Assembly: GCA_024699125.1 (NCBI GenBank)
Contig: JAILQE010000005.1
Coordinates: 1-34,353, forward strand
DNA from: Candidatus Saccharimonadota bacterium
Lineage (GTDB): Bacteria > Patescibacteriota > Saccharimonadia > Saccharimonadales > Saccharimonadaceae
Reading direction: 5' to 3'
Length of the DNA stretch: 34,353 nt
Positions 10,380 to 23,591 of this stretch are shown in pieces. The translations under genes and the position numbers were made by a program. The notes below the pieces were generated by a model. It ran no database searches, had not been told where the DNA came from, and was given only the letters and a program-made list of their open reading frames with translations. Every line of letters begins with the position of its first letter. Position 1 is the stretch's first letter.

Positions 10380-10750
10380 GTAATATTAACTGCGATTCCC
10401 CCTTAATGTACTTTATGGGAGAAAGCGGGCGGTTATCCGGCGCATTATACAATTACTTTAGGCCGCAACCGTAACCCCGCTATTCTCTCTTTTGACCGCT
10501 TCACGTATAGTGAAGCATTGATCCTTGTTAGTGTTTTCTCTTATTCTTGTTTATGTTTGTGTTTGTTTTGGAATGTGCTAATAAGAGATTTACCAACGCG
10601 CTCAACGCCCTTGGCGGAGCTCTAGGTAATTCCTAATGATGTAATTTATGGCTAGAAATTACCTTTTCACCCGCCAAATGCGGTTTTAAGTCTTTCGTTT
10701 CATTTTAAAGTTCCTTTTGTTTTTAGTTTTTTATCTTAGTCATCTCGACT
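10380..10750 (-). ncRNA. Candidate structured leader or small RNA with a five-codon ORF
   Basis: No protein gene fits. Nested complementary segments are present: 10419-10441 with 10462-10487 (long stem with a bulge); 10498-10504 with 10510-10516 (GCTTCAC/GTGAAGC); 10537-10545 with 10580-10588 (9 bp); 10611-10617 with 10671-10677 (TTGGCGG/CCGCCAA), enclosing 10625-10631 with 10657-10663. A good minus-strand promoter predicts a start at 10750. Near the 5' end is a Shine-Dalgarno (AAAAGGAAC) and a mini-ORF ATG AAA CGA AAG ACT TAA (10703-10686, MKRKT), just before the first stem. It could be an attenuation-type leader of the membrane protein gene or a free RNA. No known RNA family is recognised, and the strand is inferred from the promoter. 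Confidence 0.45.
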
Positions 10751-11633: not shown

Positions 11634-11991
11634 TGGTGGAGCTGCCGGATACTGCCTCCGGGTCCGAAAAATCACGTGGATATCATTCTACGCGTATAGT
11701 CTGCTGTTTCATCTCGGCGGATACTAGCAGCAGCAACAAACCAAACTGCTAGACGCCATGACTAAATTTTCGAGCAACTTGTCGTCAGTTAAATCACCTT
11801 ATTCCCGTTGTATGATAATTCGAATCCTACGGAACCTTAAATCCGAACCAGCCTATAGATATAAATTAGGCAAAAGCTGGCATGTATGCAACATGCGTTA
11901 GCTTAGTGTTTTTAGCACTTATTTAATACTTACGGTATTCAATCGACGCGCCTGATATCTGTTAATAATCCGTCTAAGCTTTGTCAGCCCC
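11634..11991 (-). ncRNA. ssrA: Transfer-messenger RNA (tmRNA)
   Basis: 358 nt; rescues ribosomes stalled on broken mRNAs. The 5' GGGGCTG pairs with 3' CAGCTCC followed by ACCA, giving the alanine-type acceptor. The long helix under the tRNA-like part is seen as GATATCA and CGCG near the 5' end pairing with CGCG and TGATATC near the 3' end. The conserved ATTTTTCGGAC precedes the T-arm. The tag reading frame starts at GCT (11916-11914) after the typical TAAGT context and encodes AKNTKLTHVAYMPAFA, stop TAA (11868-11866). The T-arm stem CCGGA/TCCGG is intact but its loop is GGCAGTA, not TTCRANY. The D-loop region also lacks the usual GG. Identity is secure; the loops are unusual. Confidence 0.93.
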
Positions 11992-15173: not shown

Positions 15174-15189
15174 GTCTTATACAGACTTA

Positions 15190-15526
15190 AATGAGCTATC
15201 GATAAGCCGGGTTCTGTATCTATACAAAGTATAGACGATGACCATCTATCTAGACGCTACATTGCTATAGCGCTCAAGCGGTGAGCGTGCATCCCCGAGT
15301 CAGGGTATCTAGCACTCCTTGCAGCCAGTAGGGTTTGCCTCTGTAACGTGTCGCCACATCACACTGTGAGCTCTTGCCTCACTCTTTTCACCTTTGCCTG
15401 TAAAACAGGTAGTATTGTCTCTGTGGTACTTTCCCTATTCTTGCGAACGGTCGCCGTTAGCGACTACCGTGCTCTTTGCTGCCCGGACTTTCCTCTTGGT
15501 AACCCAAGCGGTCATCTTTCAAGCTC
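15190..15526 (-). ncRNA. rnpB: RNase P catalytic RNA
   Basis: The ribozyme that trims tRNA 5' leaders. On the minus strand it contains the invariant GAGGAAAGTCCGGGC near the 5' end and ACAGAACCCGGCTTATCG near the 3' end, the two conserved halves of the catalytic core. The 5' GAGCT (15526-15522) pairs with AGCTC (15197-15193) as P1, fixing the ends near 15526 and 15190, about 337 nt. The expression signal is TGC-TAAAAT (-10 at 15538-15533), whose +7 position is 15526. Confidence 0.95.
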
Positions 15527-15532
15527 CCCTAT

Positions 15533-22457: not shown

Positions 22458-22486
22458 TTTACTTTTTTGCAGTTTTATTGTATACT
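22458..22486 (+). promoter_or_regulatory. Promoter of the large structured RNA
   Basis: TTTACT (22458-22463), 17 bp, TATACT (22481-22486). Predicted start A at 22493. Confidence 0.65.
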
Positions 22487-22492
22487 ATAAGC

Positions 22493-23023
22493 ATGTACCG
22501 CTATGTGCGTTAGAACCCAGGGTGGTTCATTAGCGTTGACTGGGCACAACATTTACCGTTTGCCCAGGGTCAATGAAGTTTTGCACGAAGCCAAGAGGTT
22601 AATATCTCTGGCGTGCACGCCAGAAGTATTAATCTACCTTTGGCGGAAACGTCAAAGGATGGTGAACTGCGAAGCTGAGTTGATCGGGCCCACCGAGTAG
22701 GCGATGCTCGGGATTGATGAAGTGTTCACGAACCAAGAAATTAAAACTCTTGGTGTGCACGCCAAGAGTATTAATTTACCTTTGGCGGACGCGTCAAAGG
22801 ATGGTAGAAGGGACATGGAGTCAATCGGAGGATTTAAGGCTTTCCTGCCTAAGTGGAAAACCCGGCGGATTTTACTGGTTTTCCTGCCGAAGTGGAAAAT
22901 CTGATTTGTGGATGCTTTTTCAGACTTTCCTGCCTTAGTGGAAAATCTGACATAGTAACAAAAAAGGGCGCCAAACACAAAGCCCTTAACCCTGGCAGAA
23001 CGGCATACGCCAGGGCTTTTTTA
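22493..23023 (+). ncRNA. Large structured RNA with duplicated, covarying domains
   Basis: Independent RNA gene between a promoter and a strong terminator. CTATGT (22501-22506) pairs with ACATAG (22950-22955) to close the molecule. Within it: hairpins at 22513-22528 and 22540-22567; domain 1 (22568-22685) closed by GGTCAA/TTGATC; hairpin CCGAG/CTCGG (22693-22711); domain 2 (22712-22826) closed by GATTGA/TCAATC. Each domain holds a TGCA-loop hairpin (22607-22624; 22747-22768) and a 9-bp hairpin CCTTTGGCG/CGTCAAAGG (22637-22658; 22779-22800). The domains are sequence repeats, and several stems differ by compensating changes. Three hairpins follow with stem TTTCC/GGAAA and loop TGCCNNAGT (22841, 22880, 22926). 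No ORF has a start signal or spans the structure. Family not recognised. Confidence 0.8.
22991..23023 (+). terminator. Terminator of the large RNA
   Basis: CCCTGGC and GCCAGGG form a stem followed by CTTTTTTATT. A preceding AAGGGC/GCCCTT pairing (22964-22986) shares bases with an extended form of this stem, so two alternative folds exist. Confidence 0.88.
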
Positions 23024-23039: not shown

Positions 23040-23591
23040 ATGACAGTTTTAAAAGTTTTAACTACTCCAGATCAAACCCTGCGCGTAAAAAGCCGCAACC
23101 TCAGCGTTGCTGAAATTAATTCTGAAGAAGTTAAAACTCTTATAAACGACATTTATGAAACCCTGCGCGCCGGCGAATATGGCGTTGGTATGAGTGCCAT
23201 CCAGGTGGGTAAACCCCTTGCAGTTACCGTCGTCATGATTCGTCCTACACCTAATCGTCCGGAGCTTACCAACTTCAACAAAGTCTACTTTAACCCTAAA
23301 ATCATCGAAACCTTTGGCAAAAAAGAGCCTATGTGGGAAGGCTGTTGCAGCGTATTAGACGAAAACTCGAATCCAGTTTACGCCAAAGTGCCACGTTACA
23401 CCAAAATTCGCGTTGAATACCGTGACGAAGCCGGCAAAAAGCACCGCAATCTGGCCGACGGTTTCCTGGCCCATGTTTTGCAGCACGAAATCGACCATAA
23501 TAATGGCATTTTGTTCACTGATTTAGTCGATGCAAAAGACATCATTTCACAAGAAGAATATCGCAAATTGAACAAAATTATTACTCAGTAA
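23040..23591 (+). CDS. def: Peptide deformylase
   Basis: Removes the formyl group from the N-terminal Met of new proteins. 183 residues. Motif 1 is GVGMSAIQ (usually GxGLAAxQ), motif 2 EGCCS with metal ligand Cys102, and motif 3 QHEIDH with His149, Glu150 and His153, so the metal site is complete. No Shine-Dalgarno is present; the -10 lies exactly seven bases upstream, so the mRNA is probably leaderless. Its 3' end overlaps the convergent dehydrogenase gene by 7 bp. No fmt is in the window. Confidence 0.95.
   Translation: MTVLKVLTTPDQTLRVKSRNLSVAEINSEEVKTLINDIYETLRAGEYGVGMSAIQVGKPLAVTVVMIRPTPNRPELTNFNKVYFNPKIIETFGKKEPMWEGCCSVLDENSNPVYAKVPRYTKIRVEYRDEAGKKHRNLADGFLAHVLQHEIDHNNGILFTDLVDAKDIISQEEYRKLNKIITQ

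Follow-up and report, generated by a model that had tools for sequence, protein, structure and literature searches.

What does the most strongly folded part of this DNA encode? Within the window, by which we mean the whole analysed stretch of 34,353 nucleotides from a Candidatus Saccharimonadota bacterium, positions 22493-23023 have a minimum free energy of -210.3 kcal/mol, compared with -156.0 ± 6.2 kcal/mol for shuffled sequences (z = -8.75, 0 of 100 shuffles equal), and when both strands of the entire window were scanned for folding, the 200-nt pieces at 22501 and 22601 ranked first and second, above RNase P RNA. The stretch is intergenic, with a divergent gene of 190 aa on one side and a peptide deformylase gene downstream, and a frame check identified no protein-coding frame of note within 22493-23023. 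The initial annotation, made from the letters alone, had proposed a large structured RNA gene of no known class, set between a promoter and a strong terminator. Its coordinates are right and both signals are present (Table 1; the terminator was overlooked by a simple scan because its loop is 12 nt long), and the proposal of a structured RNA is upheld by the excess of folding and by the homologues and covariation described below. With respect to class, none of the 4227 models of Rfam 15, HEARO and raiA included, matched the window RNA at gathering score, the best stray matches being far below it, and OLE, ROOL and GOLLD were not among the Rfam matches at E ≤ 10; the homologues L106-L111, L113 and L155 did not match Rfam either. 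The literature yielded no description of an RNA of this kind from Saccharibacteria or Patescibacteria, which is weak evidence, as subscription papers and most preprints were outside the search. Very few bacterial RNAs of at least 500 nt with a conserved ornate fold are known, and each of them was unexpected.

Table 1. Coordinates of the RNA gene, its predicted parts and its neighbouring signals in the window
Feature	Position	Strand	Basis or remark
Promoter-like site TTTACT-17-TATACT	22458..22486	+	promoters also precede homologues L155 and L161
Whole RNA gene, about 530 nt	22493..23023	+	folding excess, no protein frame of note
Possible closing helix CUAUGU (5' strand), ACAUAG (3' strand)	22501..22506, 22950..22955	+	centroid fold only
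5' hairpin CGUUA..GAACC..GGUUC..UAGCG	22507..22536	+	predicted fold
Hairpin just 5' of domain A, CUGGGCA/UGCCCAG	22540..22567	+	placed like the CCAG..CUGG hairpin of homologues
Core domain copy A	22568..22685	+	P1 22568-22574/22679-22685, P2 22577-22585/22668-22676
Copy A junction helix, P3 and P4	22590-22593/22660-22663, 22596-22635, 22637-22658	+	shared fold and covariance models
Hairpin separating domains A and B, CCGAG/CUCGG	22693..22711	+	predicted fold
Core domain copy B	22712..22826	+	P1 22712-22718/22820-22826, P3 22738-22777
Copy B P4	22779-22800	+	bears the GACG loop of the family
UUUCC-UGCCNNAGU-GGAAA hairpin copy 1	22841..22859	+	pattern match and family comparison
UUUCC-UGCCNNAGU-GGAAA hairpin copy 2	22880..22898	+	pattern match and family comparison
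Hairpin copy 3, UCAGA-C-UUUCC-UGCCNNAGU-GGAAA-A-UCUGA	22920..22950	+	nearest of the three to the family form
Intrinsic terminator CCCTGGC/GCCAGGG and T-run	22990..23023	+	read directly from sequence
Second, paralogous peptide deformylase gene (def)	23040..23591	+	own promoter-like TATAAT; neighbour, not part of the RNA

The two repeats of about 116 nt that had been noticed in the RNA are real: their cores (22591-22663 and 22733-22805) share 82% identity over 73 nt, and we placed the repeat ends at the closing helices. When copies A and B were compared on their shared fold, both sides were altered in 6 of 47 pairs, compared with 3.0 ± 1.2 in shuffles (reached in 3 of 500), in agreement with the earlier observation that helices of the repeats differ in sequence and still pair. 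Domains A and B are 68% identical to each other vs. 48-63% identical to any other copy, and because this likeness exceeds that to any other copy, the duplication would most simply have been local. The three hairpins with a common stem and loop were likewise found to exceed chance by far, with 3 matches to the DNA pattern TTTCC-TGCCNNAGT-GGAAA (starts 22841, 22880 and 22926) vs. 0.05 expected (0/100 shuffles); their loop letters are conserved and their flanks drift. Across the genus, the hairpin pattern TTTCCTGCCNNAGTGGAAA, with 2 mismatches allowed, occurred at background level only, neither the hairpin nor the P4 pattern was found in viral contigs, and the covariation of a possible UGCC/GGCA loop contact was not above that of shuffles. 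The weakest item of the observation is the helix CTATGT/ACATAG, which had been thought to close the RNA around the repeats: it is present in the centroid fold and has no comparative support.

BLAST searches with the window RNA gave no real match elsewhere in its own genome, in 197 relatives, in all 174 members of the genus, or in phages and plasmids. A covariance model (R1) was therefore not drawn from relatives but from the two window repeats only, the internal duplication serving as the alignment, and it identified full-length structural homologues in six further genomes of the genus (E = 1.3 × 10−8 to 3.8 × 10−7 per genome). These lie in intergenic regions of comparable length, and several have visible promoters and terminators. 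Reciprocally, a model of six relatives from which the window was left out (R2, based on the hand-registered alignment A6 with N padding) recovered both window repeats (E = 1.7 × 10−9 and E = 3.5 × 10−6), so that the expected homologues in sister genomes do exist. Sequence search alone thus misses such RNAs, as BLAST gave no relative of the window copy, whereas the model of its two internal repeats found the family.

With R2, the family comprises 14 loci in 12 other genomes, of which 13 loci are in 11 genomes of the genus and 1 is in the sister genus. Eight of the homologue loci belong to Candidatus Saccharibacteria, several of them from sheep gut, and two genomes (G072 and G235) have two gene copies each. 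The class is sparse, being present in 12 of the 174 genus genomes and 1 of the 45 sister-genus genomes, which implies that the RNA is not essential to the group. Among 296 genomes across the phylum, only the window's own genome was matched, and no homologue was identified in phages, plasmids or viral contigs; as far as searched, the class appears confined to one family of Saccharibacteria. Similar promoters (TTTACTTTTTG...TATAAT) precede the homologues L155 and L161. At L160 (near 10790, - strand, in G036), the 5' half of the homologue is lost and a promoter-like TTTACTTTTTG leads directly into the central part of the RNA. Several candidates were rejected: a P3 DNA pattern run over the genome contig collection gave 21 stretches, of which those outside Saccharibacteria fail the model and represent chance; a match in G387 (E = 0.04) is weak and inside a protein-coding frame; and minus-strand model matches in the window mostly reflect a backward reading of the near-palindromic P3 hairpin.

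In the window and in nearly all relatives, the parts follow the same order, namely an adjacent hairpin, the three-way-junction domain and a UUUUCC-UGCC…AGU-GGAAAA hairpin. P1 closes the domain and is followed by an internal loop (GAAA vs. AUAA in relatives), a short AGCC/GGCU helix and a three-way junction with P3 and P4; P4 is capped by GACG in 14 of 15 copies. Across 15 sequences of the domain, pairing holds in 94.9% of cells and both strands have changed in 24 of the 41 pairs, compared with 11.3 ± 2.0 in shuffles and 4 to 10 in slid controls, which keep relatedness. This alignment was fitted to the model and so favours the proposed structure; in the first, hand-made alignment, 15 of the 41 pairs changed on both sides. 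Ten near-full-length RNAs were compared in a plain sequence alignment that was not fitted to structure, and here 26 of 70 pairs outside the domain change on both strands (11.1 ± 2.2 in shuffles, 1 to 8 in slid controls). A scan of all column pairs that was blind to the proposed structure ranked the same helices at the top. Beyond the junction, support extends to a GUGUGUC/GACACAC helix, although two rows are partly misaligned there; a CCUAUCC/GGAUAGG hairpin; a 5' H-type pseudoknot (CUGC/GCAG, CUAC/GUAG, CUGU/ACAG over UUUCCGC/GCGGAAA); a closing helix CCUGCA/UGCAGG (variant CCUACA/UGUAGG) that brackets the adjacent hairpin and the junction domain; the CCAG..CUGG hairpin; the UUUUCC-UGCC..AGU-GGAAAA hairpin with its base UAGAU/AUCUA; and a 3' helix with a hairpin capped by GAAA, followed by a final hairpin ahead of the terminator. 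The covariation that the initial annotation had named as a check is present, and these comparisons of aligned sequences show a fold that has been kept by compensatory change under selection; we have hardly any doubt that the RNA is genuine, conserved and structured.

The window member departs from the others. It has two adjacent hairpins (counting the one between the domains), two junction domains and three UGCC..AGU hairpins, vs. a single UGCC..AGU hairpin at the same place in each relative matched, and it has no recognisable 5' pseudoknot, its 5' part being short, and no recognisable 3' GAAA helix. Given these absences and an identity to other members of only about 50-60%, its function may have changed. 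Doubling is seen elsewhere too, as the 5' unit GGCUCC..AUGAGCC..AAGUGU..CACAUUGGCC is present twice in L154 and L162 (tandem duplicates of GGCTCC..ATGAGCC..AAGTGT..CACATTGGCC at L154 7618-8250 and L162 3450-3715).

At the family level, this is a new RNA class that is closest in behaviour to OLE, ROOL and GOLLD and is a member of none of them. Those are large ornate bacterial RNAs whose structures have been determined (PMC12286853). Like them, the new RNA is large, ornate and non-coding, has pseudoknots and apparently its own transcription units, is sparsely distributed, and belongs with RNAs whose function is partly known or unknown; like GOLLD, it combines a conserved 3' region with a variable 5' region. 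Unlike ROOL and GOLLD, which typically occur in phages and near tRNA islands, it is located in chromosomal housekeeping neighbourhoods, and the phage or tRNA-island context expected of such RNAs was absent at the loci scanned, where there was no phage cluster. The tmRNA and RNase P RNA are likewise large and folded, are of similar length and contain pseudoknots or junctions, but both are encoded separately in the window (11634-11991 and 15188-15527, respectively), and the new RNA matches neither model.

As to what the RNA does, the best explanation is a structural RNA of about 500 nt that is transcribed independently, acts in trans and serves as a scaffold, by itself or with proteins; to this explanation as a whole we give an even chance. 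Independent transcription would rest on the promoter and terminator only, and the scaffold step is inferred solely from the size of the RNA, its rigidity and near-invariant loops, and its repeated modules, without data on transcripts, partners or phenotypes. Tertiary or RNA-RNA contacts would be made by the junction domain, which is rigid and has a near-invariant GACG loop and an A-rich internal loop (GAAA/AUAA), the UGCC..AGU hairpin would be the docking site for a partner, and the window version would have gained valency by copying modules in cis. It is conceivable, although we put this forward only tentatively, that the product is an RNA-only or RNA-protein assembly in episymbiotic Saccharibacteria, with the junction module as the building block, most species assembling it from RNAs with a single module and the window's species having fused two, together with three docking hairpins. 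The host Patescibacteria have genomes of about 1 Mb or less, in which keeping such an RNA must pay, and with the alignment, the covariance model and the named genomes now available, transcription, structure and partner can be tested.

The RNA might instead form a homo-oligomeric, RNA-only particle like OLE, ROOL or GOLLD, with the doubled domain of the window standing in for a dimer by fusion. Length, ornate fold, pseudoknot and module duplication are all reminiscent of those RNAs (PMC12286853), and the P3 loops are palindromic in the window (UGCA within GUGCAC) and in L164 (UGCGCA) and could kiss; the other members, however, mostly have a non-palindromic GACG loop in P3, so that the class as a whole lacks a common kissing contact, and we consider such a particle unlikely. 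We are similarly doubtful of a sponge or decoy, in which an RNA-binding protein is titrated, as by CsrB, through the UUUCC-UGCC..AGU-GGAAA hairpins, and the large domains contribute nothing but stability. The three near-identical hairpins of the window, with their constant loops, do recall CsrB and CsrC, but many protein-binding hairpins in every member, as in CsrB/C, are not found here, where the window has three and each relative matched has one; conservation and covariation are strongest in the three-way-junction domain, not in the hairpin; and the UGCC..AGU loop differs from the GGA-in-loop motif of CsrA. The suggestion that the hairpins are repeated protein-binding sites remains plausible, as relatives keep one copy at the same place, but it is without partner data.

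For the preferred scaffold, action in trans is suggested by the genomic context. Seven loci have neighbours in common within an interval of a TrmB-type regulator, the RNA, MazG, a SpoU methylase and a small conserved upstream protein, although not every gene occurs in every locus (L165, and L161 in part, have pieces). In seven loci, tRNA-Ala and tRNA-Ile, which are the usual pair of rRNA operons, lie a few kb from the RNA, and one of the two G072 copies adjoins smpB. The genes downstream of the RNA differ between loci and several converge on it from the other strand, and a role in trans, as opposed to that of a def leader, would be the simplest reading of this variation. The window, L154, L164 and L152 are outside the TrmB/MazG/SpoU interval, and these differing sites, the sparse distribution and the duplicated modules could point to a degenerate or mobile element that folds stably while the RNA itself has no function. 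We regard this as very improbable, since compensatory changes need selection on the RNA, since eight loci keep parts of an ancestral TrmB - RNA - MazG - SpoU - tRNA-Ala/Ile neighbourhood, indicating largely vertical inheritance, and since the neighbours scanned included no recognisable transposase, integrase or phage cluster, the sole phage-type match being a GH25 lysozyme near L154.

The second def gene is rare, with 4 of 118 genomes having it at 66% identity or more (three orthologues in 117 others), and the usual def copy is on another contig of the same genome. Homologues of the RNA had been predicted upstream of def, and this was not the case: the relatives are beside TrmB, MazG, SpoU or smpB, and the window RNA is absent near the three orthologues of the second def (in G117, G029 and G113). 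Two orthologous def loci (L054 and L055) and the L083 locus were rejected as homologues, having no such RNA. That the RNA regulates def or the following gene in cis, as a leader or attenuator perhaps operating by CCAAGA/TCTTGG strand exchange, is largely refuted and merits almost no credence: def begins 17 nt past the terminator, and the alternative pairing, which the initial annotation had read as two competing folds, exists and is possible in 96.7% of cells, but def has its own promoter-like site, the homologues adjoin unrelated genes, some convergent, the orthologous def loci do without the RNA, and the alternative helix has no covariation (260 of 500 shuffles were as good), leaving a switch unsupported.

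In G117, which belongs to the same genus, an intergenic region upstream of the second def orthologue holds another, unrelated candidate for a structured RNA, of about 560 nt (L053:659-1220), which has its own promoter-like site and terminator and no Rfam match. Conservation of its homologues (L093-L099) is 89-94% in five genomes and 74% in one more, and 28 of its 185 predicted pairs change on both sides; neither BLAST nor a covariance model detected similarity between this RNA and that of the window. Elsewhere in the window, the tmRNA gene was found by the Rfam model and missed by ARAGORN. Positions 10390-10720 on the - strand are also strongly folded (z about -5.6), with no protein frame of note and no Rfam match, and adjoin an AT-rich region that contains a DnaA box of the TGTGGAAAAC type and resembles a replication origin.
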